NCBI GenBank assembly: GCA_021775005.1
Contig: JAJFIK010000013.1
Location: 1 to 64,000 of the forward strand
DNA: 64,000 bases
Source of the DNA: Rhodospirillales bacterium
GTDB lineage: Bacteria > Pseudomonadota > Alphaproteobacteria > JAJFIK01
Direction of reading: 5' to 3'
Shown: one piece after another, positions 6,966 to 23,451 of the stretch
How positions within the stretch are numbered: position 1 is the stretch's first letter
How the letters are laid out: every line of letters starts with the position of its first letter
Notes under the pieces: model-generated
What the model saw: only the letters and a program-made list of their open reading frames with translations
The model's database searches: none
Told to the model about the DNA's origin: nothing
Translations under genes and position numbers: made by a program

Positions 6966-8102
6966 TCAAGTATAGGGATCTGCCGCATCGCGGAGGCCAT
7001 CGCCGAAGAAATTAAACGCCAAAATGGTCAGGATCACCGGCAGCATGGGCAGCAAAAGCCAGGGATAGAACTCCACCGCCGCAAGGTTCTGGGCCTCGTT
7101 CAAGAGCACCCCCCATGAGGTAATGGGCGAGCGCAAGCCCAGCCCGAGGAAGGAAAGCGCGGTTTCGCCCAAAATCATCGTCGGGATGGAAAGGGTCGCG
7201 CTGGCGATCAGATGGCTCATGAAGTTGGGTGCAAGATGGCGAAAGATGATGCGTCGCGGCGACGCGCCCATAAGCCGGGCGGAGGTGACGAAGTCTTCCT
7301 CGCGCAAGGCCAAAAATTTGGAGCGCACCGCGCGGGCGAGCCCGGGCCAATCCAGCAGCCCCAAAATGATGGTGATGCCGAAGTAAACCAATATGGGCGA
7401 CCAGCGGATAGGGATGGCGGCAGAGAGTGCCATCCACAACGGCAATTCCGGCAGGGACCGGATGAGCTCAATAAAGCGCTGCACAATGTTGTCGACCCAG
7501 CCGCCAAAATATCCCGCGACCCCGCCAATGATCAGCCCCAGCACAAAACTGATGGTGATGCCCACCAGGCCCACCGTCAGCGAAATGCGGGTGCCGTGAA
7601 CAATGCGGCTGAACATGTCACGGCCCAAGCGATCGGTGCCCATCAGGAACAATGTGCCGTCTTCATCGGGGCAGACAAAGTGGAAGCTGCCCGGCGCAAG
7701 ACCCCAAAACCGATAGCTCTCTCCCATGCAGAAAAACCGTAACGGGTCCGCTTCGCCTGTGGGCACATAGATGCGGCGGAACGTGTGCAGGTCGACGGTT
7801 TGCTCATAGGCTTTGGTATGCGGGCCAATGAAGCGGCCCTCATGCATAAAGTGAATGGCTTGCGGCGGTGCGTGAATAAAATCGGCGTGGCGTGTGCGCA
7901 CATCGTAAGGCGCAATTAACTCCGTAAACGGAATGCTGGCATAGAGCACAACAAGAATGAAGGCGGAGATTACCGCCAGCTTATGGCGCTTGAACTTGAG
8001 CCACATGAGCGCCAGGGATGACGCATCGGCGGGCAGAGCGCGGCCTGCATCACGCTCCGCATCAGGGCTAAACGGGGCAGGGTTGACGTAGTGCTCCGTC
8101 AT
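6966..8102 (-). CDS. OppC/DppC-type peptide ABC transporter permease
   Basis: 378 residues. An N-terminal helix (about 34-57) is followed by an unusually long periplasmic segment (about 60-155), MGTDRLGRDMFSRIVHGTRIS (the OppC family hallmark) and five further helices with the EAA loop. The end, FFGDGLRDAADPYT, is the conserved OppC C-terminus. The start overlaps the stop of the OppB gene by four bases. It forms the inner-membrane channel together with OppB for a peptide-like solute. The long loop before the DRLGRD motif recalls permeases of alphaproteobacterial peptide or sugar-peptide importers. Confidence 0.93.
   Translation of the reverse strand: MTEHYVNPAPFSPDAERDAGRALPADASSLALMWLKFKRHKLAVISAFILVVLYASIPFTELIAPYDVRTRHADFIHAPPQAIHFMHEGRFIGPHTKAYEQTVDLHTFRRIYVPTGEADPLRFFCMGESYRFWGLAPGSFHFVCPDEDGTLFLMGTDRLGRDMFSRIVHGTRISLTVGLVGITISFVLGLIIGGVAGYFGGWVDNIVQRFIELIRSLPELPLWMALSAAIPIRWSPILVYFGITIILGLLDWPGLARAVRSKFLALREEDFVTSARLMGASPRRIIFRHLAPNFMSHLIASATLSIPTMILGETALSFLGLGLRSPITSWGVLLNEAQNLAAVEFYPWLLLPMLPVILTILAFNFFGDGLRDAADPYT
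6970..6993 (-). repeat. 24-bp direct repeat at the intact oppC 3' end
   Basis: Partner of 5772-5795; it covers the codons for the last residues of the OppC permease. The segment between the two copies, about 1.2 kb, contains pyrE only. Confidence 0.85.
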
Positions 8103-9124
8103 GATGGCGCTTCTCCATCCATGCGGATACGCGGGTCAAGCCAGCCCAGCAGCAAGTCTGACACCAGCATGCCGAATAGAGTCAGCACAGCCACAAACAA
8201 CAGAATAAATCCGGAGAGATAGATGTCTTGGGTTTGCAAACTCGTCAGCAGCACCGGGCCAATGGTGGGCAGGTTCAAGACCAGCGAGACGATCACCGAG
8301 CCTGACACAAGCGAGGGCAGCAGGTTGCCGATGTCGGCGATGAACGGGTTTAGCGCCATGCGAAGCGGGTATTTGATCAGCGCGGCGGTCTCCCCCATGC
8401 CTTTGGCGCGGGCGGTAGTGACGTAAGGTTTCTGCAGCTCGTCGAGCAAGTTCGCACGTAAGCGGCGGATCATGGCGGCGGTCCCTGCTGTGCCAATGAC
8501 GATTACGGGCACCACCATGTGCTGCATGACAGAGAGAAATTTCGAGAGCGTCCACGGCTCGCCGAGATATTCCGGGGCCATCAATCCGCCAATGGAAACA
8601 CCGAACCAGCGATTAAAATAATAAAGAAGAATAAGTCCGAGCAAAAAGTTCGGTGTCGCAAGGCCCAAATATCCCAGGAAGGTAAAACCGTAGTCGCCGA
8701 CGCTATAGGGCCGGGTGGCGGAATAAACCCCGATGGGGAACGCCACAATGTAAATGAACACCACCGTGGCAAGGTTCAGCACCACGGTGAGCACAATTCC
8801 CTCGCCGACAATTTCCGACACCGGGCGTTCATAGGTAAATGACCAGCCCAGGTCCCCTTGCAGCAATCCGGAAAATCCCCGATTGCCCGGATACGCCCCG
8901 ACCCAGATTAGATAGCGCGTGAACAAAGGTTCATCGAGATCGTATTGTTCATAGAGCGCTTCAACGCGGGCGATGGCGGCATCTTCACCGCTGGCGCGCA
9001 TTTCATCAATACGGTTGGAAAGGATATCGCCTTCCGGCAGCTCAATGATCAGAAATATCAAAACGCTGACCGCGATCAATGTCGGGATCATCATCATGAT
9101 ACGTTCGATGGTAAAGCGCAGCAT
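8099..9124 (-). CDS. OppB/DppB-type peptide ABC transporter permease
   Basis: 341 residues with the classic OppB start MLRFTIERIMMMIPTLIAVS, a periplasmic domain containing YDLDEPLFTRYLIW and GDLGWSFTYERPV, and then the binding-protein-dependent permease domain with five predicted helices and the EAA-like loop (RAKGMGE). It lies 27 bases downstream of the binding-protein gene and is coupled to oppC. It is the second channel subunit of the importer. Confidence 0.93.
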   Translation of the reverse strand: MLRFTIERIMMMIPTLIAVSVLIFLIIELPEGDILSNRIDEMRASGEDAAIARVEALYEQYDLDEPLFTRYLIWVGAYPGNRGFSGLLQGDLGWSFTYERPVSEIVGEGIVLTVVLNLATVVFIYIVAFPIGVYSATRPYSVGDYGFTFLGYLGLATPNFLLGLILLYYFNRWFGVSIGGLMAPEYLGEPWTLSKFLSVMQHMVVPVIVIGTAGTAAMIRRLRANLLDELQKPYVTTARAKGMGETAALIKYPLRMALNPFIADIGNLLPSLVSGSVIVSLVLNLPTIGPVLLTSLQTQDIYLSGFILLFVAVLTLFGMLVSDLLLGWLDPRIRMDGEAPS

Positions 9125-9151
9125 TAACGAGCGTCCAACGGCCTTGGCTGA

Positions 9152-11065
9152 CTAGCGACGAGAAGCGTCGAGCCAGAATTGGTCTGGGCGATACATGCCA
9201 AAGTGGCCGCCCGGGTCCCAACTATAAACGCCTTGTTCGGGCACATTGTGCAAGTGATTGCTGACCACGATGGGCTGCAGCACTGAGGAAACGATGCCAA
9301 TGATAAATTGCTGCTCGGCGTGGATGGCGAGCATATCAAGCCATATCTGCTCGCGCTGGGCATCTGAATTTGATGATAGCCATTGATCATAGAGATCCAT
9401 CAGGGCCTGCGCCTCGGGCATATCAATGGGCTCCCCGGCTTCACCGCCGGTTTGATAGTACTGCCCCCACTTCGGCCAATTCAGCGTGTCTTGCCGCGTG
9501 GGTGCCAAATTGCCGGGGCTCATGGCCGGTGTCGCCACCCCATTATCCCAACCCGACCACACCGTCACGTGCGCTTCACCGGCATAGGTGCGATTGCGCA
9601 TGACTTCGCGGCTGGTGCTGCGAATGAGAAGGCGCACACCGACCTCGCTCCAGGTCTCCGATAGCAATTCCAGTAAGTCGATCTGCTGGGGGTCTTCGCC
9701 AGCGTTTTCCACAATAATCTCAAGCGGTCGCCCATCGGGCAGCAAGCGCACATTATTGGGCCCGCGGTCCGTCAGGCCAATCTCATCTAGCAAGCGGTTG
9801 GCGGCGTCAGGGGAATAGGTCGCGTATTGCCGGAAATAACTCTCGCGATAAAGCGGCGAGAGCGGCTGCAATGTGGCGTTGCCTTCAGCGGCCAGGCCAA
9901 AGAACAAAGACTGATTGATAATGCGCCGGTCGGTGGCGGCGGAAAGCGCGCGGCGGAACCGCACATCGCGAAACAGGTTACGCCAAACCGGGTCGTTGTG
10001 GTTGAGGTTTGGATAAAGGGCAAAATGCGCCGCCTTGCCGTCAGGCCAAAGATAGGTCTGGTAGCCGCTGCGTTCTTCCCCGCCGCGCAAGACGGTGACA
10101 TCGGAAAAGTTGAGCCCCCGTGATTGCAAATCCGCTTCGCCTGAATTCGCCATGGCGGGAACCAGACGGCCATCGGCGACGGTTTGCGCCACTTCATCGG
10201 CGTAAGGCAATTGTCGTCCGTTCTGATCGACGCGATGAAAAAACGGATTGCGTGCAAAGACAAACCGGCTGGTGGACCCCGGCGTGGTGTTCACCCATGG
10301 CTGCAGCGTCGGCAAATCCATATTGTCCATGTTGTAGAGATTGTCGAAGCGATTGTGCAACTGCGCCCAACCACTCACGTTGTTGGCGGTGACGGCTGCC
10401 GCAATCATAGCGGCATCGCCATAGGATTCGTGGAACTGCTTTAAGTAATGCGCCGGGGCGTAGATGTAGACCGGCCGCGCGCGCGCCAGGCTATCCAGAA
10501 AGCCGGGGTTCGGCGCGGCCCAAGTGTAGCGCACGGTCGTGTCGTCAAGCACTTCAAATTGAGGTGGCGCGCCTTGAACCAGCAGCTCAGCCGGCGGCCC
10601 TGCCGGCGAAAGCGCCGCGTTGTTGGCCACATCCTCCCACCAATAGCGGAAATCCTCGGCGGTAAACGGCGCGCCATCCGACCAGCGATGGCCGGGGCGT
10701 AAATGCAGAGTGAAGATGCGGCTTTCTTCCACGTCCACGGCGCGCAGCACATCAGGCGTAAGGGCGAGATCAGGGCCATAGCCCACTAGCCGCGCATAGC
10801 CGTAAACCGCCATCAGGCGGGTGTCGCGGGTGCGGGTAATCAGGGTGCGAATTTGTCCGCCGTGCTCGCCCGGTTGCAACTCACCCTCAAGGGTCACCAA
10901 CAAAGGCGTTGCGGGCAAGCGCTCTGCCACGGGCGGCAAAGCGCCGCTTTCAACGCGCGCCAGAAGCGAGGGGGTTTCAATATAGTTCTGATCGTCTTGG
11001 GCCGCAGCTGAAGCGCTCACGCCAAAAGTCAGGATCGCCGCCATAAGGCCGCATCGCCAATTCAT
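9152..11065 (-). CDS. Periplasmic peptide-binding protein (SBP_bac_5 family)
   Basis: 637 residues from the ATG at 11065, chosen because AAGGAAACAGG directly precedes it and because the protein then begins with a clean signal peptide (MNWRCGLMAAILTFGVSASAAAQ). An upstream extension to 11209 would bury that signal. The features LHLRPGHRWSDGAPFTAEDF and DVRFRRALSAATDRRIIN are diagnostic of the DppA/OppA class. The protein is longer than average, matching the subfamily with large ligands. It captures the solute for OppB/OppC. The gene lies 14 bases after the ATPase gene. Confidence 0.92.
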   Translation of the reverse strand: MNWRCGLMAAILTFGVSASAAAQDDQNYIETPSLLARVESGALPPVAERLPATPLLVTLEGELQPGEHGGQIRTLITRTRDTRLMAVYGYARLVGYGPDLALTPDVLRAVDVEESRIFTLHLRPGHRWSDGAPFTAEDFRYWWEDVANNAALSPAGPPAELLVQGAPPQFEVLDDTTVRYTWAAPNPGFLDSLARARPVYIYAPAHYLKQFHESYGDAAMIAAAVTANNVSGWAQLHNRFDNLYNMDNMDLPTLQPWVNTTPGSTSRFVFARNPFFHRVDQNGRQLPYADEVAQTVADGRLVPAMANSGEADLQSRGLNFSDVTVLRGGEERSGYQTYLWPDGKAAHFALYPNLNHNDPVWRNLFRDVRFRRALSAATDRRIINQSLFFGLAAEGNATLQPLSPLYRESYFRQYATYSPDAANRLLDEIGLTDRGPNNVRLLPDGRPLEIIVENAGEDPQQIDLLELLSETWSEVGVRLLIRSTSREVMRNRTYAGEAHVTVWSGWDNGVATPAMSPGNLAPTRQDTLNWPKWGQYYQTGGEAGEPIDMPEAQALMDLYDQWLSSNSDAQREQIWLDMLAIHAEQQFIIGIVSSVLQPIVVSNHLHNVPEQGVYSWDPGGHFGMYRPDQFWLDASRR

Positions 11066-11079
11066 CCTGTTTCCTTCCG

Positions 11080-12972
11080 TTACGCCGTAGCAGTCTCTGA
11101 TGTCGATTGTGATGCCGACCCAGTTGCAGGCTTTGCCACGAAATGCCCCGGCCCGCATTCTAACATGATACTCGGCGCGTCCCCAACAAGGCGAAACTCT
11201 TCCGGCCAAGCGGCGGGGTTGGACGCTCGCCCCGCCATGATCTTTCCCAAATCCAGCTTGTGGTTAACATCCGGCAAAGGGATCGCGTTCATCAGCGCGC
11301 GCGTATAGGGGTGCTGCGGGTTCTCAAACAAAGCCCGCTTGGGGCCGCGTTCCACAATGCGCCCTGCCGCCATCACCAGCACATCATCGGCAATATAATC
11401 CACCACCGCCAGATTATGGCTCACAAATAAATAAGTGAGCCCCAAGGCGGATTTAAGGTCTTTCAGCAAGTTCAGCACCTGCGCCTGCACCGAGACATCA
11501 AGGGCTGAGACGGGCTCATCAAGGATCAAGACATCCGGCTCTAACGCCAGCGCCCGCGCGATGCCAATGCGTTGGCGCTGTCCGCCTGAAAACGCATGGG
11601 GGTAGCGCCGGGCGCATTCCGGATCGAGGCCCACAAGATCGAGCAAATGCGCCACCCGTGTGCGGCGCTCCGCAAGGCCGCAAAGATCGTGCACTTCCAT
11701 CGGCTCTGAGAGTATTTCAAACACTGTCATGCGCGGATTAAGTGACGCCATGGGATCCTGAAAGATATATTGCACCTTGCGGCGAAAGCGATTGAGCAAG
11801 TCCCCTTTAAGCGCGCAGACATCATGCTGCACACCGTCATGGCACCAAAACACAGTGCCTTTGGTGGGGGCGAAGGCGCGCACAACGGCTTTTGCTGTTG
11901 TTGATTTGCCGGACCCGCTTTCGCCCACCAGCCCCAGGCATTCGCCGCGCGCCAAGGTGAAGCTCACATCATTAATGGCGGTGGTCCATTTTGTGGTGCT
12001 CGACAGAAAGCCTGATTTGCGTGCGGCGAATTGCTTGGATATGCCGCGCACCTCGAGCAAGGGATAAGTCTCATCCGCCGGGGTGGGGACAACTTCGTCG
12101 CCCCAGGTCTCAATGCGCGAGCTGATCTGCCGCAGCGGCGTCAGGCGTTCGCCCACTGCCATCCCCATACGCGGCACGGCCCCCATGAGCGCTTTGAGGT
12201 AATCGTGTCGCGGCGCGGTCATCAATTCCGAGGCTGCCCCCGCTTCCATCACCTGCCCGCGATAAAGCACCACAACTTCGTCAGCCACATTGGCGACCAC
12301 CCCCAGATCATGGGTGATGAACAAGACACCCATATTGAAGTCGCTCTGCAGATCCACAATCAGCTTTAGAATTTGCGCCTGGATGGTGACGTCGAGTGCG
12401 GTGGTGGGTTCATCAGCGATGAGCAATGCCGGTTCACACACAAGCGCCATGGCGATCACTGCGCGTTGGCGCATGCCGCCCGATAGCTCAAAAGGGTATT
12501 TGTCCAGCGCCGCATCAGGATCGGGAAAGCCGACCCGGGCAAGGATATCGCGGGCGCGGGCGCGCGCTTCGCTTTTGGGGCCATCCCCGTGCAGCATCCA
12601 GACCTCGCCAATTTGATCGGCAATGGTATGAAGTGGCGAAAGCGCGGTCATGGGTTCCTGGAAGATCATCGCCGCGCGGGCGCCGCGCAAGTTGCGAAAC
12701 ACCGGGCTGGTGGGGCTGATTTTTGCCAGATCAATGGCGGGCCCCTCGCCCTGGGGATCAGTAAAGTTGATGCCGCCGCCGCCGATTTTTGCCGCACGCG
12801 GCAAAATCCCCATCACCGCTTGGCAAAGCACGGACTTGCCTGAGCCGCTTTCCCCCACCAGTGCGACGGTTTTGCCGCGCGGGACGGAAAGACTTGCCCC
12901 GTCAAGCGCGCGGACGGTGCCGTGGGGCAGCTCAAAATCAACCACCAGGTCTTTAACGTTCAGGATTTCCAA
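11080..12972 (-). CDS. Fused double ATPase of peptide importer (DppD-DppF fusion)
   Basis: 630 residues with two complete ABC domains. Domain 1 has Walker A VGESGSGKSVLC, signature ELSGGMRQRAVIAMAL and Walker B LLIADEPTTALD. Domain 2 has VGESGSGKSTTAKAV, AFSGGQRQRIGIARAL and VLILDEPVSALD. Each is followed by the oligopeptide-transporter C-terminal extension. The layout is that of GsiA/YejF fused ATPases. It energises the OppB/OppC channel. The N-terminus overlaps the preceding hypothetical gene by 13 bases, suggesting coupling to that gene. Confidence 0.93.
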   Translation of the reverse strand: MEILNVKDLVVDFELPHGTVRALDGASLSVPRGKTVALVGESGSGKSVLCQAVMGILPRAAKIGGGGINFTDPQGEGPAIDLAKISPTSPVFRNLRGARAAMIFQEPMTALSPLHTIADQIGEVWMLHGDGPKSEARARARDILARVGFPDPDAALDKYPFELSGGMRQRAVIAMALVCEPALLIADEPTTALDVTIQAQILKLIVDLQSDFNMGVLFITHDLGVVANVADEVVVLYRGQVMEAGAASELMTAPRHDYLKALMGAVPRMGMAVGERLTPLRQISSRIETWGDEVVPTPADETYPLLEVRGISKQFAARKSGFLSSTTKWTTAINDVSFTLARGECLGLVGESGSGKSTTAKAVVRAFAPTKGTVFWCHDGVQHDVCALKGDLLNRFRRKVQYIFQDPMASLNPRMTVFEILSEPMEVHDLCGLAERRTRVAHLLDLVGLDPECARRYPHAFSGGQRQRIGIARALALEPDVLILDEPVSALDVSVQAQVLNLLKDLKSALGLTYLFVSHNLAVVDYIADDVLVMAAGRIVERGPKRALFENPQHPYTRALMNAIPLPDVNHKLDLGKIMAGRASNPAAWPEEFRLVGDAPSIMLECGPGHFVAKPATGSASQSTSETATA

Positions 12973-13544
12973 GGGCCATCCCCACGTGTCTCGATACCGA
13001 TGGATTCCATATTCGCCAATGATGCTTCATCGATCATGAGCTCAAGGGGGTCAGTGGCGGCCCACACGGCGGCGAGCACGGGGTGAAATCCTTCATGGCC
13101 CCCGTCGAACGTAATGGAGATGCGCTTTCCGTCGGCGCTTTCGCCATCAATTTTCGCCACCATGAGCTCAAGGTTTTTGGCCTCGCGTTTGCGATTGAAG
13201 TGACGGACTTTAAGCGCGCGCACCCCCGCCCAGGGCAAGCTGCGTTTCTGCAACAAGATCGCGCCGCTGGCGTCCAACGGGTTGTGCCAGCCCGCCGTTA
13301 TCCCCGTGTCATCAAGCTCCAGGCGCAGGCCGTGCCGCCACAGGGTGTTTGCTGTGTAGATCACAAACGCAATAAAGAGCGCCGTGAGGATCAACCAAAT
13401 GACGCTGCCGGGATTGGCCTGGCTCAAAATCCCGCCAATAACAGAAAGGCTGAAGACGCCGCGCGCATAATCCCAGATGATGGATTTGAACTGGGTGTGA
13501 AACGCGGCAGGCGCGGCATAAGGGCTATCGGTCATGGTAAGCAC
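12960..13544 (-). CDS. Membrane protein of unknown function, PH-like C-terminus
   Basis: 194 residues. Two hydrophobic segments lie at roughly 30-50 and 50-72 (VIWLILTALFIAFVIYTA), followed by a soluble beta-rich part with the sequence LRLELDDTGITAGWHNPL, reminiscent of bacterial PH-like domains. I do not recognise the family. The gene begins just after the glycosyltransferase gene and overlaps the transporter ATPase by 13 bases, so it is co-transcribed with both and bridges the glycosyltransferase and importer blocks. The second methionine (residue 4, MTDSP) is an equally possible start. Confidence 0.65.
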   Translation of the reverse strand: MLTMTDSPYAAPAAFHTQFKSIIWDYARGVFSLSVIGGILSQANPGSVIWLILTALFIAFVIYTANTLWRHGLRLELDDTGITAGWHNPLDASGAILLQKRSLPWAGVRALKVRHFNRKREAKNLELMVAKIDGESADGKRISITFDGGHEGFHPVLAAVWAATDPLELMIDEASLANMESIGIETRGDGPWKS

Positions 13545-13545
13545 C

Positions 13546-14649
13546 CTAGGAAGGGTCGCTGCCCCCGCGCAAGCCCTGCAAGATCACAGCCGTGTGGGCG
13601 GCGCCAGAAAGATCAAGCGGCCGCGCCTTTGGCAGCGTGCGGGCGCGGGCGGTGGCCTCTATCAGTGCCTCAGGCTCAAGTGAACCCGGTGTAACGCCGA
13701 GCCCTCGGGCCGCTGCACGGGTGGCACGGATACTCTGCTCAGTCTGGCCAGCCTCGGCATAGGGCACAAACACCGGCCGCGTTCCGGCGCTTAATACTTC
13801 CGCAAACGTATTGTAGCCCGCTTCTGAGATTGAGACCTCAGCACTTGCCAGCGCTCCAACGAACTTATCCGTATAGGGATGAATGGTAACATGAGAGCTC
13901 ACGGCATTGGGCGCGGCAATTCCTGGCGGCACGAAGATATCCCACGGGGATTTTGCGCTGGCGATACTTTCAGCGGCTTTGGCGGCGCTGAGCAAAAGCG
14001 CTTGCCCTGTGGGGCTGGACCCGGCCGAGACCACAACGCCGCGTTTTTCCTTCGTGGGAAGCGCCGGCGCAATATAGCCGGTGTAGTGTAGGCGTGCCTT
14101 GGCTGCAAAGGGCGCGGTCTCCTCAAGCTCTATGAAACTTGCATCGCCATGGACCAGTGCGGCGTCGAAGTGGGTTGCAAGCCACCCGGCCATCTCAGCC
14201 CTTTTCGCGGGCGCTTTAGGCTCCACAATGTCGCGCACTGACGACACGATCAGCGGCGGGGTCGGCAGCGCTTTCGCCGCCTCAATAAGCGCCAGAACCT
14301 CGCCGGCAAACTTTCGTCGCCCAAAGGGAAACAGCTCCACCATCACCACATCAGGGGCAGAGGACGCCAGGGCGGCAAGCAGCGCTTCCCGGCGCAAGGC
14401 CCAGAACGTCTCATCAGGGCTATCGCCATGCGCCGTCTGCAGGGCGGTGTATTCCGCATCTGCGGTCCCCAGCGCTGGAAGCTGATGCGCCGTAACCCCT
14501 TTGAGGTCGGCAAAAGCCAAACGCCCCCCCGGTCCCCCCGCCACTACGGTGACGCGCATAGGGGCCGCGGCGCAGGCCTCCGCAATGCGCGCCATGCGGC
14601 GTATGTGCCCGCGTCCAAACAAGTGCTGCACCCAGATGAAGAGATTCAT
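13546..14649 (-). CDS. MurG/GT28-like glycosyltransferase
   Basis: 367 residues from the ATG at 14649, which overlaps the stop of the histidine phosphatase by one base (TGATG). This start gives the expected N-terminus MNLFIWVQHLFGRGHIRRMA, where the glycine-rich turn sits after the first strand. The C-terminal half holds a GT28-type donor site (VVVSAGSSPTGQ and ISEAGYNTFAEVLSAGTRPVFVP). It resembles the protein encoded at 17484-18683. The substrate is unknown; a nucleotide-sugar donor is expected. It is the last glycosyltransferase of the operon. Confidence 0.78.
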   Translation of the reverse strand: MNLFIWVQHLFGRGHIRRMARIAEACAAAPMRVTVVAGGPGGRLAFADLKGVTAHQLPALGTADAEYTALQTAHGDSPDETFWALRREALLAALASSAPDVVMVELFPFGRRKFAGEVLALIEAAKALPTPPLIVSSVRDIVEPKAPAKRAEMAGWLATHFDAALVHGDASFIELEETAPFAAKARLHYTGYIAPALPTKEKRGVVVSAGSSPTGQALLLSAAKAAESIASAKSPWDIFVPPGIAAPNAVSSHVTIHPYTDKFVGALASAEVSISEAGYNTFAEVLSAGTRPVFVPYAEAGQTEQSIRATRAAARGLGVTPGSLEPEALIEATARARTLPKARPLDLSGAAHTAVILQGLRGGSDPS

Positions 14650-15227
14650 CAGCGCGCCTCCAGGGGAATGTTCAACGCCTCCACCTGCAGTCGTCCCCCG
14701 CGAAAGCGCAAAACTTGCAGCGCGGCCCAATCAATCTTGGCGGGGATTTTGCTGGTCATGTCCCAATCCAAAGCTTCCGCCAGGGCCGCGCGTATGACGC
14801 CTTTGTGGCTTACCGCGCCATAGGTGCCGTCTTCAAGGGATGCGGCCCAGCCGCGCACGCGGCGCAAAACCTCCGCAGGGCTTTCCCCGCCCTGGGGGCG
14901 AAAATCGAGCCCGCGCGCTTCATTGGCGGCCATGGCGCCGGGGTCAGCGGCGCGTATGGCGGCAAGGGTTTCGCCTTCCCAGTCCCCCCAGTGCATTTCA
15001 ATGAGCGCACCCGCGGACGTCGCGACAAGTTCGAGGGCGGCGGCGGTCTCCCGCGCGCGCGCCAGGGGGCTGGTGGCCCAGGGAATATCTTGAAGCCCAT
15101 CCGGCACCCGGCGCGCCTGAAGAAACGCTGTTGCTTCGGGCGCGAGCGAAATATCAGTATGACCCTGAATGCGCTTGTCGCGGTTCCATTTGGTTTCGCC
15201 GTGTCTGAGAAAGGCAATCAGGGTCAT
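14649..15227 (-). CDS. Histidine phosphatase family protein
   Basis: 192 residues beginning MTLIAFLRHGETKWN, with the catalytic RHG at residues 8-10 and a second histidine in AVSHKGVIRA. This is the phosphoglycerate mutase-like / alpha-ribazole phosphatase fold. Both ends overlap the neighbouring glycosyltransferases (four bases and one base), so it belongs to the same translation unit. By position it may dephosphorylate a sugar phosphate or lipid-linked intermediate of the glycan pathway, but this is inference. Confidence 0.87.
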   Translation of the reverse strand: MTLIAFLRHGETKWNRDKRIQGHTDISLAPEATAFLQARRVPDGLQDIPWATSPLARARETAAALELVATSAGALIEMHWGDWEGETLAAIRAADPGAMAANEARGLDFRPQGGESPAEVLRRVRGWAASLEDGTYGAVSHKGVIRAALAEALDWDMTSKIPAKIDWAALQVLRFRGGRLQVEALNIPLEAR

Positions 15228-16258
15228 GGGCGGGCCATGGTCAGCGCGCTTTGCAGGGCGCGGAGAAAATTAGATCTGGTGTGCATGGTCGCTGCGCGCG
15301 CGATGGCCGCCACTTTAAGCGCGGCCCATTCTGCGTCATCCCCAAGCAAACCACTGAGAGCGGGAGCAAAGTTTTCCGGCGTGGTCAGCCTTCCGCCCGC
15401 ACCGATGGCCGCGCGCGGGCCGGGCTCATCGAGCGCCACACATGGCAGCCCCGCCGCCTGCGCTTCGATATAGGACATGCCCAAGCCCTCCCGCGTTCCC
15501 GGCCACACATATGTTCCCGCTGCAGACAAAAGCGCAGCAAGCGCATCGCCGTGTTTCGCGCCTTTAAAGTCCACGCGGGTTTTGAGGGGCGCGAACGCCG
15601 TTTCCACCTCACCACGGGCGGGGCCGTCGCCGACAATGCTCAGGTGCCAGTCGCCAGCGACCTTACTCAGCGCATTGGCAAGAAATTGATAGCTCGCAAG
15701 TTTATCGCCCGCGCGCATCATCGCCACGGTGATCAAGTCACCCGGTTTGCCGGTACCAAGTTCTGCCCGCGGCAAGCGCGAGTAAAGCGGCAAGTCGATA
15801 AGCTTGGCCTGGTAGCCCGCTGCTTCCAGCGCCGGGCGATCTCGCGCCGAAAGCGTTAGCAGGGCATTGGCAGCGGCAATGGCGTGGGCAGAGGCCGCAA
15901 ATCCCGCCGCCCATGGCCCGTGCTCGCGTTTGGGAGAATGGGACGCCTCCGCGATGATATAAGGAATGCCCCGGGCGGCCAAGCGGGGGCCAATAAGATC
16001 AGGGGCCTTGTAGTAGCAATGATAGGTGAAAAACAAATCCACCTGACGACCGTGAAGCCGGGCGGCTTCATCGCTGCCGCGCACACCCAATTGATCAAGG
16101 TTTTGCGGTGCGGCGCTCCAGGATTTAAGCGGAGAGGCGAGGGTCACGTGATGGCCCAGCTCCTCAAGTCCCGACCAGAGCTCCCCCGCAATGGTGCGAT
16201 CGCCAGATGCGCCGCTCGCGCCGGGAGGTCGCATGGGAGCGTAGAACGAAACATTCAT
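15224..16258 (-). CDS. GT4-like glycosyltransferase
   Basis: 344 residues. The N-terminal part starts MNVSFYAPMRPPGASGASGDR, with the glycine-rich loop of GT-B enzymes. The C-terminal donor domain has LSIVGDGPARGEVE and the E-x7-E region in EGLGMSYIEAQAAGLPCVAL. It transfers a sugar from a nucleotide donor to an unknown acceptor in the cytoplasm. It overlaps both neighbours by four bases (ATGA). Confidence 0.82.
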   Translation of the reverse strand: MNVSFYAPMRPPGASGASGDRTIAGELWSGLEELGHHVTLASPLKSWSAAPQNLDQLGVRGSDEAARLHGRQVDLFFTYHCYYKAPDLIGPRLAARGIPYIIAEASHSPKREHGPWAAGFAASAHAIAAANALLTLSARDRPALEAAGYQAKLIDLPLYSRLPRAELGTGKPGDLITVAMMRAGDKLASYQFLANALSKVAGDWHLSIVGDGPARGEVETAFAPLKTRVDFKGAKHGDALAALLSAAGTYVWPGTREGLGMSYIEAQAAGLPCVALDEPGPRAAIGAGGRLTTPENFAPALSGLLGDDAEWAALKVAAIARAATMHTRSNFLRALQSALTMARP

Positions 16259-17487
16259 GAGCGGCCGCTCCCAAGGGCGGCGCGGAACAAGGCCGCTAAT
16301 TGATCCGCCCAGGGGCGACTATCAAAGGCGGCGCTCACATGGCCCGCCCCGGCCCGGCCAAGCTTGAGACGTTGGTCTTCATCTTTGGCAAGGGCGGTAA
16401 CGGCCCGCGCCATACCCCAACTGTCGCCGGGGCTGACTAAGATTCCAGTGGCGTCATGGCTGATGGCTTCGGGGATGGCGCCTGCATGGGTCGCAATGAC
16501 CGGCACCCCCATGGCCATCGCTTCCAGCAACACATTTGGCACCCCGTCGCGGTCGCCGTCAGTTTGATTTTGGCTGGCAAGCAGAAAGACATCCGCGCGG
16601 GCAAGCAACTCAACCACCTTTTCCTGACTTTGCGGGCCCTGCCAGGTGATCCGATCCGCAATCTTCAACGCTTTTGCTTGGTCTTGCAGCGCCGCGCGCA
16701 GCTCCCCGCCGCCGATGTGTTCAAACCTCCAATCCACCTCATCAGGAATGACCGCCAAGGCATCAAGCAAAGAGGCGTAGCCCTTTTTGGGAACCGCGCG
16801 CCCCACCGACACAAGGCGCAAGGGCGCGCCGCGGTGGCTGCCGCGCGCGGGCTTCGCAAACTTTGACAATTCGATACCGTGATACATCAGCGCCACGGGG
16901 CCAAAGCGCGGCGTTCCTAATACATTGAGATGATCCACGCCGCTCTTGGTACAAGTAACGCCAAACAAAGCATCATTGAGCTTTTCAGATTTCTCCCAAG
17001 CGGGAATAGTAAAAATATCTTTGGCATGGGCGGAAAAGCTCCAGGGCCGCCCGGACATCATTCCGGCATAGCGCGCCACCGACGAAGGCGTGTGCAGAAA
17101 CTGCGCATGAAAATGCGTGACGACGCTTGGGGCTTCAGCGGCAAGCACCATGGCTTGGCCAAAGCGGCGCACCCGGTTGCGTGTCTTGTCGCGGGCGAAG
17201 TCCTTGCGAAACAATTGCCACGCATCATCAAACCCCGGCAGGGCGCGGGCTTTTCGCGCCGCGTTCATCACCCGTGCGGGCTCATGGTGCAAATACTCCG
17301 GCAGATAGGATACGGGAGCCTTTATGACATCATGCACGGGATGATGCGTTTTATCTGTTGGGCGGCGCAAAGAATAAATCTCAATGGCGAACCCGCGCGC
17401 TTCCAGGTTGGCAATTTCCTGCGCTATGAATGATTCAGACAGCCGCGGGTAGCCCTTAAGGACAAAGCCAAGGCGCGCCGCCGTCAC
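16255..17487 (-). CDS. GT4-family glycosyltransferase
   Basis: 410 residues with N-terminal LGFVLKGYPRLSESFIAQEI, common in exopolysaccharide glycosyltransferases of the WcaL/AmsK type, and a C-terminal GT4 donor domain (LVSVGRAVPKKGY, VFLLASQNQTDGDRDGVPNV, EAMAMGVPVIATHAGAIPE). This is the retaining GT-B fold. It is translationally coupled on both sides. It probably adds a hexose to a polysaccharide or glycolipid. Confidence 0.87.
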   Translation of the reverse strand: MTAARLGFVLKGYPRLSESFIAQEIANLEARGFAIEIYSLRRPTDKTHHPVHDVIKAPVSYLPEYLHHEPARVMNAARKARALPGFDDAWQLFRKDFARDKTRNRVRRFGQAMVLAAEAPSVVTHFHAQFLHTPSSVARYAGMMSGRPWSFSAHAKDIFTIPAWEKSEKLNDALFGVTCTKSGVDHLNVLGTPRFGPVALMYHGIELSKFAKPARGSHRGAPLRLVSVGRAVPKKGYASLLDALAVIPDEVDWRFEHIGGGELRAALQDQAKALKIADRITWQGPQSQEKVVELLARADVFLLASQNQTDGDRDGVPNVLLEAMAMGVPVIATHAGAIPEAISHDATGILVSPGDSWGMARAVTALAKDEDQRLKLGRAGAGHVSAAFDSRPWADQLAALFRAALGSGRS

Positions 17488-18683
17488 ACCCGCCTCCGCG
17501 CACCGGGAATGTGCGGTGCGATCAGCTCCTGAATGACGGCGGTGCCCGTCATGGCGTTCGCGGGCAAGTGGACCGAGGGCGTGTTCTGATCTGGCAGCGC
17601 AGACAGTGCCGCCGCCATGTCATGCGGATTGCGCGCGCCGGTGCCAGCTTCTTCTGGATCAATCAGCATACGGATGAGACCCCTTTTTTCCGCCCCTTCC
17701 GCGCGGATCACTTGCTCGCGTCGGGGCTGCATGCGTGGCACCAGCAATGTCGGGCGGTCATGAGTGAGAATTTCGCAGAATGTATTGTAACCCCCCATGG
17801 CAACAATCCCGGCGGCCTTGGCAATAAAGTGTTCAATGCGGGCGTCAAAGACTATGGTTTCGATGTTACCGAGCTTGGCGGCGCGGGCTTCAAACCCCTC
17901 GCGAATGTCAGGGGGCAAAAACGGCCCATAGACAATAAGCGCCGGCAGCAAGCCCTCGCCGGCCTCTTCATAGGCGCTGAGCACCCAATCAATCAGTCCC
18001 GCGCCATCACCGCCGCCGCCTGGCGTGACCAGAAGATAGGGGTCTTTTGTCACCTCCGGCCATGTTTCGGGAAGGGTGTATTCAGGCAGAGGGCGGGGCA
18101 AAAACCCGGTATAAGTGATTTTATCGCGGGTGCCTTCCGGCAACGGTTGGCCTTGCAGGGGGTCCCATATTTCCTCAAGACCATAGGTCCAGATGTCGTC
18201 GTAAAGCGTCAGGGCGGAGAACGCGCCCTTGCGCAGCCATTCGGCCTTGAGAGCAGATTCCTCATCCAGCACATCGCGCAAGCCCAATATCAGCCGGGTA
18301 CCTTTGGCTCTCAGCATGGGCAAGGTCTTTTGCAATTCTCCGCGCAAGCCCAAGGGCTCTTTGTCCACAATCATCACGTCGGGGGCGAAGGCTTCGGCGG
18401 TGTGCTCCATAATCGAGGCCCGCAAGGCCATGGTCTGATCGAGCTCAATGTGCAGCCCCAGCGAGGTATAAGCCCCATTGCGCAGCTTGATGACGCCGGG
18501 AACGCGAACGAAATCCACCCGCGCCTTGAAGTCAAAATTGCCCACCAGGGGCGAGCCAGAGAGGATCAGAACCGAGAGACTGGAATATTCCTCCACCAGG
18601 GCATGGGCGATGGTCCGCGCCCGGCGCAAGTGGCCCAGCCCAAATGTATCGTGGCTGTAGATTAAAATACGCGCACCGGGCAT
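17484..18683 (-). CDS. MurG/GT28-like glycosyltransferase, first gene of operon
   Basis: 399 residues. The start at 18683 is preceded by GGAAGGAG with about six bases spacing and yields MPGARILIYSHDTFGLGHLR, a proper GT-B first strand and glycine turn; a start ten codons further upstream has no such site. The C-terminal donor site is GIVAMGGYNTFCEILTHDRP, typical for GT28-C enzymes. It is the promoter-proximal gene of a five-gene operon (glycosyltransferase, GT4, GT4, phosphatase, glycosyltransferase) running toward the peptide importer. It diverges from the ABC exporter, sharing a 99-base promoter region. Confidence 0.8.
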   Translation of the reverse strand: MPGARILIYSHDTFGLGHLRRARTIAHALVEEYSSLSVLILSGSPLVGNFDFKARVDFVRVPGVIKLRNGAYTSLGLHIELDQTMALRASIMEHTAEAFAPDVMIVDKEPLGLRGELQKTLPMLRAKGTRLILGLRDVLDEESALKAEWLRKGAFSALTLYDDIWTYGLEEIWDPLQGQPLPEGTRDKITYTGFLPRPLPEYTLPETWPEVTKDPYLLVTPGGGGDGAGLIDWVLSAYEEAGEGLLPALIVYGPFLPPDIREGFEARAAKLGNIETIVFDARIEHFIAKAAGIVAMGGYNTFCEILTHDRPTLLVPRMQPRREQVIRAEGAEKRGLIRMLIDPEEAGTGARNPHDMAAALSALPDQNTPSVHLPANAMTGTAVIQELIAPHIPGARRRV

Positions 18684-18782: not shown

Positions 18783-21512
18783 ATGGAACGCAATCTGTTC
18801 AAATATATCTGGCGCCACTCCAAGCGCGAGCAGATTGTGGTGCTGGTCATCGTGCTGGCCTCGCTGCCGTTCTATTTTGTCTCGCTTTCGCTCCCGGCCG
18901 CTATCGTCAACGGACCCATTGAAGGAACCTGGTTTCAGGAAGGTGTCAGCCGCCCGTTTTTGGAGATCTACTTGCCATTTTCGGAATGGTTTGGGGAGCG
19001 CATTCGCTTATTCGAGGGTTTCCAGCTAACGCGCGTAGAAATGCTCTTGGCGCTGTCCTTTTCCTATCTCGGACTGGTCTTTATCAACGGCCAATTCAAA
19101 TTTCAGGTGAACACCCTCAAAGGCCGCATGGGGGAGCGCATGTTGCGCCGGGTGCGCTTTGAACTTGTGGATCGGGTACTGCGGTTTCCGCCAAGCTATT
19201 TCCGCAAGCTTAAACCTGCCGAAGTGGCCAGCATGGTGAAGGACGAAGTGGAGCCCCTGGGCGGTTTCATTGGCGACGCCTTTGTGCTGCCCATGTTTCA
19301 AGGCGGCATCGCGCTGACGGCGCTTGTGTTCATCATGGTGCAAAACGTTTGGCTCGGCGCTGTGGCCGGCGCCGTGGTGCTGTTTCAAGCATTTATTATT
19401 CCAGTGTTGCGTCGACCCATATTGAAGTTGTCCAAAGAACGCCAGATCGCGGCGCGGGAAATGGCCGGCCGGGTGGGCGAGCTTGTGGACGGTGTCGACG
19501 AGGTGCGCATCAACGCCACCTCAAATTATGAACGCGCTGATATCTCAAATAGGTTGGGGCGGCTCTTCAGCATTCGCTATGAAATTTTTCGGCGCAAGTT
19601 CTTCGTCAAGTTCCTCAACAATTTTTTGGGCAAATTCACGCCGTTTATCTTCTACGCCGCGGGCGGTTACTTTGTCATCATTGGCCAGTTGGACATCGGT
19701 CAGTTGATTGCCGTCATCGCCGCCTATCCTGACTTGCCTGCGCCGGTAAAAATGATGATTGATTGGGATCAGCAGCGCCTTGATGTGCAAATCAAATATG
19801 ATCAGGTGGTGGATCACTTTGATCCCGACGACATGGTGCCCGCAGAAGCGCAACAGCCCGTGGGCGAGGTCTCTCATCTCCAAGGAGGTATTGTCGCCAC
19901 TAATGTCACGGTGATGGACGACACCGGCGCGCGGCTTTTACAAAACATTTCCTTCACCGTGGGCTTGGGTGAAACCCTGGCCATTGTCGGCCCGGCGGCA
20001 GGGGGGAAGGAGCATATTGGGCCCACGCTGGTACGGCTTTTTCCTCCAAGCGCCGGACACCTGGTGCTTGGGGGGCGCGATCTTTCCAGCTTGCCTGAAG
20101 GGGTCATCGGGCGCTGGGTCGGGTACTCCGGGCAAGACACCTACCTTTTCCCGGTCAGCCTGCGGGAAAACCTCACTTATGGCCTCAAGCACGAACCATT
20201 GACGCCGCCAGATGAATCGCCGCGCGATCAAGAAAGACGCGCATGGACGGCGGCAGAAACGCGCCGCGCCGGTAACGCAGAATATGATCTTGACGCGGAA
20301 TGGATCGATTATCACTCCATTGGTGTTGCGGGCGCGGCGGAATTGCGCAAACGCATGCTCGATGTGTTGCGCCATGTGGGCCTGCAAGACGATGTCTATG
20401 AAATGGGTCTGGCGGGATACATCTCCCCTGACACTCATCCCGAGCTTTGCACCAAGTTCATGTATGCGCGGCGGGTGTTTGGCGACCTCATCAAAAAACG
20501 CGGGCTTGCCCACCTGGTAGAGAGCTTTCACCCCGACAAGTACAATCGCAACGCTTCATTGGGGGAGAACTTGCTCTTCGGGCGTCCGTGCGGGCCCTTT
20601 TTAGGGGAAGGCGCGCTGGTTTCGCACCCGTATTTTCAAGAGACCTTGCACAAGGCGCAGATCGCCGACGCCATGGTGACCATGGGCTATGAAATTGCCA
20701 CGACCATGGTGGAACTATTCGCCGGGCTGCCCGCCGACCATCCGTTCTTTGATCAGTTCAGTTTCATCTCTGCCCTTGATCTGCCGGACTATAAGGGCCT
20801 GGTGAACCGCTATAGCAGCAACATCTCATGGGAAAGTGTTGATGATGACGACCGGGTAAAACTTCTTACCCTGGCGCTGCGCTATGAAGATGCGCGGCAC
20901 CGCTTGGGGCTGATCACACCGGACATCGCCGCGCAAGTGGTGCTGGCGCGCAAAACCTTTCGGCGCAATTTGCCGGACGCCTTGCAAGACGCGGTGCGGC
21001 TCTATGATCCTGAAAATTACAACGCGGCGAGCAGCATTTTGGATAATTTGCTCTTTGGCCGCATTGCCTATGGGGAGGCCAAAGCGCGTGACCGGGTGCT
21101 GGAGCTGCTCAGCGAATTGCTCGGTGAGCTGGAGCTGCATGAAGCGGTTTATGATGCGGGGCTCGACTTTAATGTGGGCCCCGGCGGCAAGCGCCTCGCC
21201 ACTCCCACGCGGCAACGCTTGGGTCTTGCGCGCGCTATCCTCAAGCGCCCGGATATTTTGGTTATCGATGCGGCGCTGGCGGTGCTCGACACCCCGACGC
21301 AGGAAAAGATCCTGCAAAGTGTCCTGGCATCGTCGGGCAGTCGGGCGGTGATCTGGGTGCTCGGGCGGCCTGAGCAAGCGGTGTTGTTTGACCGGGTGTT
21401 GGTGATTGATGGCGGCCGTGTTGTTGAGGAAGGCAAGGCGCAAGACTTGTTGGCGCGCAACGGGCCCTATGCGGCGCTTGCCAATCACAAGCCCCGGCAG
21501 GCAGCGGAGTAA
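18783..21512 (+). CDS. Divergent 909-residue ABC exporter with degenerate ATPase
   Basis: The N-terminal part (about 1-340) is a six-helix ABC exporter domain. The nucleotide-binding part starts near residue 370 but its motifs are altered. Walker A is GPAAGGK (403-409) followed by Glu where Ser/Thr should be. The LSGGQ signature is replaced by LATPT (805-809), followed by the normal RQRLGLARAI. Walker B reads LVID-A with the catalytic Glu changed to Ala at 830. The H-loop His is Gly861. Between Walker A and the signature lies a large insert in which the segment normally following the Q-loop recurs three times: ENLTYG (462), ENLLFG (595), DNLLFG (754). It probably binds nucleotide without normal hydrolysis. 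It diverges from the glycosyltransferase operon, and a cyclic-nucleotide-domain gene follows 10 bases later. Confidence 0.85.
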   Translation: MERNLFKYIWRHSKREQIVVLVIVLASLPFYFVSLSLPAAIVNGPIEGTWFQEGVSRPFLEIYLPFSEWFGERIRLFEGFQLTRVEMLLALSFSYLGLVFINGQFKFQVNTLKGRMGERMLRRVRFELVDRVLRFPPSYFRKLKPAEVASMVKDEVEPLGGFIGDAFVLPMFQGGIALTALVFIMVQNVWLGAVAGAVVLFQAFIIPVLRRPILKLSKERQIAAREMAGRVGELVDGVDEVRINATSNYERADISNRLGRLFSIRYEIFRRKFFVKFLNNFLGKFTPFIFYAAGGYFVIIGQLDIGQLIAVIAAYPDLPAPVKMMIDWDQQRLDVQIKYDQVVDHFDPDDMVPAEAQQPVGEVSHLQGGIVATNVTVMDDTGARLLQNISFTVGLGETLAIVGPAAGGKEHIGPTLVRLFPPSAGHLVLGGRDLSSLPEGVIGRWVGYSGQDTYLFPVSLRENLTYGLKHEPLTPPDESPRDQERRAWTAAETRRAGNAEYDLDAEWIDYHSIGVAGAAELRKRMLDVLRHVGLQDDVYEMGLAGYISPDTHPELCTKFMYARRVFGDLIKKRGLAHLVESFHPDKYNRNASLGENLLFGRPCGPFLGEGALVSHPYFQETLHKAQIADAMVTMGYEIATTMVELFAGLPADHPFFDQFSFISALDLPDYKGLVNRYSSNISWESVDDDDRVKLLTLALRYEDARHRLGLITPDIAAQVVLARKTFRRNLPDALQDAVRLYDPENYNAASSILDNLLFGRIAYGEAKARDRVLELLSELLGELELHEAVYDAGLDFNVGPGGKRLATPTRQRLGLARAILKRPDILVIDAALAVLDTPTQEKILQSVLASSGSRAVIWVLGRPEQAVLFDRVLVIDGGRVVEEGKAQDLLARNGPYAALANHKPRQAAE

Positions 21513-21522
21513 GGAGAGACCC

Positions 21523-21990
21523 ATGAGCCTTAGCGAAGAAGTCGAGCTGCTGCGCAAAGTTCCTATATTCTCCAATGTGGAATTGGCGAAGTTAAAGCTG
21601 CTGGCGTTCACCTCTGAGCGCGTGCGCTTTGATCCGGGCCAGGAAGTGTTCCACCAGGGCGATCCCGGCGACGCCGCTTTTGTGATTATCGAAGGCACGG
21701 CAGAAGTGGTCGCCGAAACCGACAACGGCCCCATTGTTCTTTTGGAGATGCAGCCCCACGCCTTTGTGGGGGAGATCGCCATCCTGTGTGATGTGCCGCG
21801 CACCGCCAGCGTGATCGCCAAAACCGAGCTGCATACTTTGCGTATCGAGAAAGAATTGTTCTTCCGTCTTGTGGAAGAATTCCCGCAAATGTCAGCGGAG
21901 ATCATGCGGGTGCTTGCCGAGCGTCTTGATCGCACAACGTCGGAATTGACCGCCGCGCGCAATCGCCTCCGCGAAGCGGGCATCGAGTAA
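21523..21990 (+). CDS. Cyclic-nucleotide-binding-domain protein without HTH
   Basis: 155 residues from the ATG at 21523, preceded by AAGGAGAGACCC. The fold is a single cNMP-binding barrel, with a phosphate-binding cassette FVGEIAILCDVPRTA at 81-95. No DNA-binding helix-turn-helix follows; the C-terminus is a short helix rich in Arg, Glu and Leu that could pair with a partner. It lies 10 bases downstream of the ABC exporter gene and is probably its regulatory partner. Whether it binds cAMP, cGMP or another ligand cannot be told. Confidence 0.87.
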   Translation: MSLSEEVELLRKVPIFSNVELAKLKLLAFTSERVRFDPGQEVFHQGDPGDAAFVIIEGTAEVVAETDNGPIVLLEMQPHAFVGEIAILCDVPRTASVIAKTELHTLRIEKELFFRLVEEFPQMSAEIMRVLAERLDRTTSELTAARNRLREAGIE

Positions 21991-22021: not shown

Positions 22022-22489
22022 TTGGCTTTTGTAACCGTGACCCCGGAGCAGGCGGAGAGCTATCCGCCCAATGTGCAATCCATTTTGAAGCGCCCCTCTG
22101 GCCCCAGCGCCTTCCTTGGTCTTGAGATCCAAGAGGTAGACGTAGAAGGCGCCCGCGTGCGCGCGGTGTTCAATGCCACCGAGCAAGTTTGCAACAAATG
22201 GGGCGGTATTCATGGCGGCATGGTGGCGGCCATGCTGGATGATCTTATGTCCCTCGCCGTGGGGCTTTCCCTTGAATGGGGCGAGATCACACCCACCCTG
22301 GAAATGAAAACAAGTTTTATTGCCGCAGGGCGGCCCGGACGCCTGCAAGGCGAGGGCTGGGTGATTAAGCGAGGGCGCTCAGTTGCTTTCATCGAAGCCA
22401 ACCTTCACGATGGCGCGGGGGCGCTGATTGCCACCGCGTCCTCGACGGCGCGGATTGTGCAAACCAAGCCGGACAAAAAGCAGGGTTGA
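22022..22489 (+). CDS. PaaI-like hotdog thioesterase
   Basis: 155 residues. The start is a TTG at 22022 preceded by GGAG with six bases spacing; no in-frame ATG gives a full domain. The hotdog motif NKWGGIHGGMVAAMLDD (about 60-76) and TPTLEMKTSFIAAGRPG match the PaaI/4HBT thioesterase family, which cleaves acyl-CoA esters. The stop overlaps the ATG of the cation exchanger gene by one base. Confidence 0.85.
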   Translation: MAFVTVTPEQAESYPPNVQSILKRPSGPSAFLGLEIQEVDVEGARVRAVFNATEQVCNKWGGIHGGMVAAMLDDLMSLAVGLSLEWGEITPTLEMKTSFIAAGRPGRLQGEGWVIKRGRSVAFIEANLHDGAGALIATASSTARIVQTKPDKKQG

Positions 22490-23451
22490 TGGTCTATCTC
22501 ACACTTCTTGCAGGGCTGGTGGTGCTCGCCGTCGGCGGCGATATCTTGATCCGGGGGGCGGTATCTCTCGCCAAGGCGCTCAATCTTTCACCGCTGCTCA
22601 TTGGGCTGACGGTGGTGGCGTTTGGCACCTCCGCGCCGGAGCTTGTGGCGTCACTGCGCGCCGCGCAACTTGGCGCACCAGGAATTGTGATTGGCAATAT
22701 CCTTGGCTCAAACATTGCCAACATTTTGCTCATTCTGGGTATCGCGGCGCTCATTGCCCCCATGCAAGCGGACAAGCGCGGGTTCAAACGCGATGCCATC
22801 GCGCTTACGGCGTCGGCGCTGTTTTGTGCTGTTGCTGTTGTTATGGGCGTGGCGGATCGCATGTGGGGGGTGGTCGCCCTGGTGGCCCTCGTCACCTACA
22901 TCATTGTCGCTTATCGCACCGGCCACGGCTTTCCCGCAGGCGAAGGGGTGCTTGAAACCGAAGCCCGTTTTGCATCGAAGTTCTTTGGCTTGCGCGTGGC
23001 CTTGATCGTGGACAGCATGATCGCCTTTGCTGGCATGGTGATGCTGGCCCTTGGCGGCGATTTACTGGTGCGCTCGTCGGTGCAGATCGCCCGCGATCTT
23101 GGCCTCACTGAAACCTTCATCGGGCTCACTATTGTGGCATTGGGCACGTCCGCGCCGGAACTGGTGGTCTCCACCCTTGCGGCCTTGAAGCGGCAAACCG
23201 ATGTGGCCGTGGGTAATATTATCGGCTCGAACATTTTCAATGTGCTGGCGATCCTCGGCATCACCTCGGTAATCATCCCCATTCCCATAGATGGCGGTGT
23301 GGGCATGTTTGACATCTGGGTGATGTTGGCGGCGACGGCGCTTTTGGTGCGCGTGGCGGCGACAGACTACAAGATTGAGCGCACCGAAGGCATTGTGCTT
23401 TTAGCTGGCTATGCCGCCTATATCGCGATCAAGCTGATCTTTTTTCTCTAA
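22489..23451 (+). CDS. Calcium/sodium exchanger (YrbG-type CaCA family)
   Basis: 320 residues, about ten transmembrane helices in two inverted halves. Each half carries the alpha-repeat: VVAFGTSAPELVASL with GNILGSNIANILLILG in the first, and IVALGTSAPELVVSTLA with GNIIGSNIFNVLAILG in the second. It exchanges cations, probably Ca2+ against Na+ or H+, across the inner membrane. The ATG at 22489 overlaps the preceding stop (TGATG). Confidence 0.93.
   Translation: MVYLTLLAGLVVLAVGGDILIRGAVSLAKALNLSPLLIGLTVVAFGTSAPELVASLRAAQLGAPGIVIGNILGSNIANILLILGIAALIAPMQADKRGFKRDAIALTASALFCAVAVVMGVADRMWGVVALVALVTYIIVAYRTGHGFPAGEGVLETEARFASKFFGLRVALIVDSMIAFAGMVMLALGGDLLVRSSVQIARDLGLTETFIGLTIVALGTSAPELVVSTLAALKRQTDVAVGNIIGSNIFNVLAILGITSVIIPIPIDGGVGMFDIWVMLAATALLVRVAATDYKIERTEGIVLLAGYAAYIAIKLIFFL

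Follow-up and report, generated by a model that had tools for sequence, protein, structure and literature searches.

Type IV ABC exporters such as MsbA (TIGR02203), TmrAB, Atm1 and PglK consist of a transmembrane domain (TMD) and a split nucleotide-binding domain (NBD), and those that hydrolyse ATP carry intact GK(S/T), LSGGQ, D-E and His motifs in the latter. ABC-exporter-like membrane domains that operate without ATP-driven pumping are found in SbmA/BacA (SLiPT), from which the NBD is wholly absent, and in CFTR, which is ATP-gated and has one intact site. In HetC and the NHLM/PCAT exporters, a cyclic nucleotide monophosphate (cNMP)-type domain is joined to an ABC exporter as a regulator; in HetC this domain binds ppGpp (PMC10986499). 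In S. meliloti, nine genes of smb21252-smb21271 were reported to be required for a surface polysaccharide that is uncharacterised and has the provisional name phazolicin-protecting polysaccharide (PPP), and mutants in smb21252 and smb21265 showed a raised sensitivity to phazolicin (PMC10128002); seven of the nine genes are up-regulated under Myxococcus attack (PMC10315480). Here we describe, in a stretch of 64,000 nucleotides from a Rhodospirillales bacterium (contig JAJFIK010000013.1, positions 1 to 64,000; hereafter the window), a 909-residue protein of the ABC exporter superfamily that has lost its ATPase site, is encoded next to a cNMP-domain protein and belongs to a glycan locus that appears orthologous to the PPP cluster.

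The ABC-like protein is encoded by an open reading frame with an ATG start and no internal stops. Its parts and the adjoining cNMP gene are as follows.

18783-21512, + strand: ABC-exporter-like protein with degenerate ATPase, 909 residues (intact open reading frame; PF00664; PF00005; 137 relatives aligned)
18783-19817, + strand: TMD of type IV exporter type, residues 1-345 (Pfam ABC_membrane, AlphaFold2 (AF2) model, invariant columns)
19890-20183, + strand: N-terminal half of the NBD, residues 370-467, with Walker A GGKE and module 1 at residues 448-467 (Pfam, family alignment)
20184-21194, + strand: conserved insert, residues 468-804, holding modules 2 and 3 (AF2, family alignment)
20517-20582, + strand: module 2, VESFHPDKYNRNASLGENLLFG, residues 579-600 (Asn596 in 137/137; hhalign)
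20994-21059, + strand: module 3, VRLYDPENYNAASSILDNLLFG, residues 738-759 (Asn755 and Gly759 in 137/137; hhalign)
21195-21485, + strand: C-terminal half of the NBD, with signature LATPT, Walker B DA and H-loop G (family alignment)
21523-21990, + strand: stand-alone cNMP-binding-domain protein, 155 residues, lacking a DNA-binding domain (PF00027 only, E 1.4e-20)

By sequence and by fold the protein belongs to the ABC exporters. PF00664 (ABC_membrane) was matched at residues 69-312 and PF00005 at residues 386-494, both above cut-off, a second NBD stretch lies close to the C-terminus, and the TMD carries an invariant E-x-E-P-x-G-G motif at residues 155-161. The full-length AF2 model (pLDDT 79) matched type IV exporters (TmrAB, Atm1, MsbA) in Foldseek. 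The top NCBIfam score was that of MsbA TIGR02203, with 170.5 bits against a curated cut-off of 602, which does not place the protein in the MsbA family. The order of TMD and NBD is that of an ATP-hydrolysing type IV exporter, but the catalytic motifs of such an exporter are not intact and a large insert is present. Unlike SbmA/BacA and CFTR, the family retains a degenerate NBD together with this new insert, so that the window protein is not an NBD-less transporter of the SLiPT type.

In the window protein, Walker A reads 403-GPAAGGKE-410, with Lys409 retained and Glu410 in the place of Ser/Thr, the signature is 805-LATPT, Walker B is Asp829-Ala830 and Gly861 stands at the H-loop His position. 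A first-pass annotation of the sequence had read all four motifs in this way; its statement that every motif is degenerate was right in that no intact site remains and slightly too strong in that Q-loop Gln451 and D-loop Asp836 remain, as do the Walker A Lys and the Walker B Asp. The loss of the ATPase site is family-wide, and no member with a complete set was found among the 137 aligned. LSGGQ occurs in none of them, the Walker A Lys is retained in 57 (together with Ser/Thr in 4), the Walker B Glu in 47 (Asp and Glu together in 4), the Q-loop Gln in 18 and the H-loop His, in the least certain column of the alignment, in 22. At most 5 of the 7 canonical catalytic positions are kept in any member, and 39 members have none. 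The same motif pattern was obtained after removal of redundancy (89 members), where a basic-acidic pair (K/R-E/D) replaces GK(S/T) of Walker A in 57 sequences. Canonical exporters from related genomes have the usual motifs intact. Homologues with intact GKST, LSGGQ and DE motifs, named beforehand as evidence against degeneration, were looked for among the 137 members and none was found.

The motif data bear on whether the protein could still be a working ABC transporter, either by weak ATP binding or by pairing with a canonical half-exporter that supplies the chemistry, like the heterodimeric exporters with one degenerate site. Such a function would agree with the conservation of Lys409 and Asp829, with the Walker A Lys kept in 45 and a Ser at signature position 2 in 42 of the 89 non-redundant members, and with the presence of other half-exporters in the genomes. 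However, Walker A, Walker B and the H-loop on one face of the window NBD and the signature on the other face are degenerate together, so that neither composite site would be complete with any partner. Moreover, no conserved second exporter half was found among the gene neighbours compared, and a TMD-only form occupies the same locus in one genome (G323, see below). We consider a working ABC transporter quite improbable.

Of 40 other genomes examined from the class, 10 have full-length, stop-free relatives with 29-70% identity; in a relative of the same genus, the ABC gene is split across two contigs. Relatives are also present in Kiloniella, Mesorhizobium, Microvirga and metagenome-assembled genomes (MAGs). 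Across the class, the family was detected in 131 of the 385 genomes sampled, with a few of these matches being TMD-only or partial, in agreement with the earlier suggestion of an uncharacterised alphaproteobacterial family. In a phylum-level search the insert was matched in the same class only, in a listing that does not show the number of genomes sampled from other classes. The records for the Mesorhizobium, Phyllobacterium and S. meliloti members are annotated merely as 'ABC transporter ATP-binding protein'. In L107 (genome G282; L and G numbers are our handles for loci and genomes) and other genomes of the f70 family, the insert and the dead NBD are kept, and the N-terminal membrane domain is strongly diverged, as seen in L107.

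The dN/dS ratio was below 0.5 in 47 of 48 region comparisons (12 pairs, four regions), the remaining comparison being from a very close pair with nearly zero synonymous change, and in most pairs the ratio was lowest for the TMD. The family is therefore under purifying selection although its catalytic residues are not constrained. Catalytic residues missing from a single draft assembly (97 contigs) could have reflected a decaying gene or a sequencing artefact, but a common organisation and degeneration in 137 members spanning many families, the low dN/dS and the invariant Asn residues of the modules leave this explanation a negligible probability, and both pseudogene and sequencing error were ruled out.

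The insert between the Q-loop and the signature comprises about 337 residues, and 303-409 residues in all 89 non-redundant members, compared to a spacing of 45 residues in the one canonical exporter checked. The three E/D-N-L-x-x-G modules lie at E462-N463, E595-N596 and D754-N755, exactly where the first-pass annotation had placed them (462, 595 and 754), and in each module the Asn is found in all members (137/137). The hhalign profile-profile scores were 69.6 for modules 2-3, 32.0 for modules 1-3 and 29.8 for modules 1-2, all above the control maximum of 17.7 (47 windows), and about 83 residues of modules 2 and 3 align at 25% identity. The proposal that the modules are repeated NBD halves did not hold: the recurring part is only the Q-loop-to-ENLxxG segment of the helical subdomain and the helix that follows it, and these repeats build a single compact insert.

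Modelled alone by AF2, the insert is predicted to be compact and mostly helical, with a pLDDT of 94.9 and a pTM of 0.88. No match to the insert was found in Pfam at E<=1, the Foldseek search of its model against the PDB gave no fold match (best E 0.3, TM about 0.1), and the PDB search by sequence gave one marginal match, at the NBD-like end, to Ste6 (E 0.038). A known domain was ruled out on these results. As a domain the insert is modelled with confidence, and its predicted fold is new in the sense that no solved relative was found in the PDB.

The cNMP gene is separated from the ABC gene by 10 bases. A homologue lies directly downstream on the same strand at 114 of the 136 loci with room for it; among the remaining 22, six have the cNMP domain as part of a longer frame, which either follows the ABC gene or overlaps with it, and eleven have it fused to the ABC C-terminus. 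With a twelfth fusion (L012), which is too near a contig end for the locus count, the fusions total 12 and fall in two groups in the TMD tree. The apparent absence of the gene at L104, L133 and L166 (genomes G088, G157 and G224) was ruled out, the orthologue adjoining the glycosyltransferase family 28 (GT28) gene on another contig, and for L107 the orthologue lies elsewhere in the genome. L130 (G109) is the sole locus of the 136 for which no cNMP orthologue was found. A glycerophosphodiesterase-like gene, judged by eye, occupies the usual cNMP position at L130.

The partner has the PF00027 domain and the phosphate-binding cassette (Gly-Glu...Arg) of cyclic-nucleotide-binding proteins, with Gly83 in 115/115, Glu84 in 112/115 and Arg93 in 115/115 sequences of the partner alignment (n=115). 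In some fused members of one clade the cassette residues appear changed. Genomes G154 and G330 (L108-L111) carry two or three fused ABC-cNMP copies each, with some altered cassettes (LIGDLA..., PRQL). The S. meliloti partner is annotated as a Crp/Fnr regulator, a class with a C-terminal helix-turn-helix, whereas the window partner has PF00027 only in 155 residues and its counterparts are fused to the membrane protein in 12 relatives. The adjacency and the 12 fusions support, at the level of gene arrangement, the functional tie between both proteins that had been proposed. The related suggestion that the NBD itself senses nucleotides found no support, and sensing is better assigned to the cNMP partner. 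HetC differs in having an N-terminal cNMP-type domain, a peptidase and an essential catalytic residue in its ATPase; in the window family the cNMP domain is C-terminal or separate and the ATPase is dead.

A class III nucleotidyl cyclase (PF00211) is encoded in 130 of the 131 genomes with the family, compared to 118 of the 254 others. The sole family genome without PF00211 is G109 (a 100%-complete draft), which also lacks the cNMP partner. Cyclase genes are also found near the rhizobial copies of the locus.

Divergently from the ABC gene, the window encodes an operon with the following genes.

17484-18680, - strand: GT28-like glycosyltransferase (weak Glyco_tran_28_C; co-occurrence with the ABC family)
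16255-17487, - strand: glycosyltransferase family 4 (GT4) enzyme, EpsE/WcaL-like (PF00534, 2.3e-33; synteny)
15224-16258, - strand: GT4 glycosyltransferase (PF13692; synteny)
14649-15227, - strand: histidine phosphatase, branch 1 (PF00300, 8e-40; also present in Kiloniella, in a same-genus locus and in one further MAG)
13546-14652, - strand: second GT28-C-like glycosyltransferase (PF04101, 5.9e-8; synteny)
12960-13544, - strand: small protein of 194 residues, no match in the Pfam search
11080-12972, - strand: Opp-type double ATPase (Pfam)
9152-11128, - strand: SBP_bac_5 protein, start uncertain (Pfam)
8099-9124, - strand: permease (Pfam)
6966-8102, - strand: permease (Pfam)

The ABC family and GT28 occur together in 124 genomes, with 7 genomes having the ABC gene only and 2 GT28 only (131 vs 126), and the GT28-like and GT4 genes of the operon accompany the ABC gene in nearly all sufficiently long loci. 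These data support a functional tie of the ABC family to the divergent glycan operon, as the first-pass annotation had anticipated. The four genes at 6966-12972 continue the glycosyltransferase operon as an Opp/Dpp-type importer, which places a peptide-type importer in a surface-glycan locus. The small protein at 12960-13544 is conserved in the same-genus relative L021 with 48% identity; similarly placed small frames in L023 and L024 are at most possible homologues.

On pSymB of S. meliloti we found a syntenic locus with an orthologous gene set, at identities of 45% for the ABC protein, 55% for the cNMP protein, 51% for GT28, 48% for GT4 and 47-62% for the importer genes. The smb numbers are our assignment from gene order and not taken from a record; the block fits smb21252-smb21271 because it comes after the deacetylase, aminotransferase and sulfotransferase genes, which are listed as smb21247-21249 (PMC5498481). 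ABC, cNMP, GT28, GT4 and Opp-type importer genes are common to both loci. The histidine phosphatase is additional in the window operon, and thioesterase and Na/Ca-exchanger genes follow in its genus. The publication on PPP treats the cluster as a whole by transposon sequencing (Tn-seq), whereas the ATPase loss, the insert and the cNMP partner are not described there. From gene content and synteny, the ABC protein appears to be a constant part of a surface-glycan pathway of Alphaproteobacteria. The genes for the thioesterase (4HBT) and the Na/Ca exchanger lie after the cNMP gene (window 22022-23451, + strand) and were seen in same-genus relatives only.

In genome G323, a 360-residue protein ending just past the TMD is encoded divergently from the same four-glycosyltransferase operon, with about 230 bases between its gene and the next. 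Elsewhere in this genome (91% complete) the family NBD and insert were not found, the other matches being brief stretches of NBD or TMD from ordinary ABC proteins, and a PF00027 protein was likewise not detected. Among 4 genomes of its order no further TMD-only locus was found. The G323 variant suggests an essential function in the membrane part and a tendency of the NBD, the insert and the cNMP protein to be kept or lost as a set. Stand-alone TMD-only relatives without an NBD were also seen outside glycan-locus contexts (L118 and L119, and the more distant L120-L122); L118 adjoins a multicopper-oxidase-like frame, judged by eye.

The TMD-only form is of importance for a second alternative, in which the protein would serve the glycosyltransferases as a scaffold in the membrane or as an allosteric regulator, would take no part in transport and would be the means by which the cNMP protein tunes glycan synthesis. 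The ATPase loss, the strict co-occurrence with glycosyltransferases and the conserved insert as a large helical platform would all be compatible with it. Nevertheless, the TMD, with the lowest dN/dS in most pairs, is the sole part that survives in G323, which suggests an essential membrane part, and we regard a pure scaffold as rather unlikely.

The explanation that we prefer, with about an even chance of being correct, is that of an ATP-independent, cNMP-regulated component of glycan translocation or assembly, which has the type IV exporter fold and has lost the NBD ATPase. For its substrate, direction, energy source, bound nucleotide and gating we infer the following scheme. The neighbouring GT28/GT4 enzymes would make a glycolipid or lipid-linked glycan, and the TMD would either carry this product across the inner membrane or hold the assembly site of these enzymes, in both cases without ATP hydrolysis as the power source. 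The dead NBD and the triplicated helical insert could serve the adjacent or fused cNMP protein as a platform for docking and as a lever, and pass on its state, with cAMP or cGMP from the class III cyclases opening or closing the path. That this amounts to a new transport mode, in which cyclic-nucleotide gating replaces ATP power and a triplicated helical subdomain of so far unsolved fold links a separate cAMP/cGMP sensor to a glycan-translocating TMD, is a tentative possibility on the doubtful side.

Several observations weigh against this scheme. A few members, among them L143 (GK-T, LSGAQ, D-E, H) and L116 (GK-S and D-E), have nearly complete motifs, so that some ATP may still be bound, or in certain lineages hydrolysed, and the window protein itself retains the Walker A Lys and the Walker B Asp. 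Genome size and clade are partial confounders of the cyclase enrichment, and the double loss of cyclase and cNMP partner, like the TMD-only case at the glycan locus, comes from a single genome with a draft assembly (G109 and G323, respectively). Coupling of a cNMP-type domain to an exporter is plausible from HetC, but because the HetC domain binds ppGpp the ligand should not be assumed. A literature search found no publication naming smb21266-smb21270, and none naming the S. meliloti ABC or cNMP gene individually, so the match to S. meliloti rests on position and homology.

If no member hydrolyses ATP, a large family is misannotated. The family offers a test case of how an exporter fold functions without ATP, and it provides some of the numerous nucleotidyl cyclases in these bacteria with a concrete candidate function. 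It also names a likely membrane component, and its likely regulator, for a polysaccharide that is poorly defined and influences the sensitivity of rhizobia to an antimicrobial peptide.

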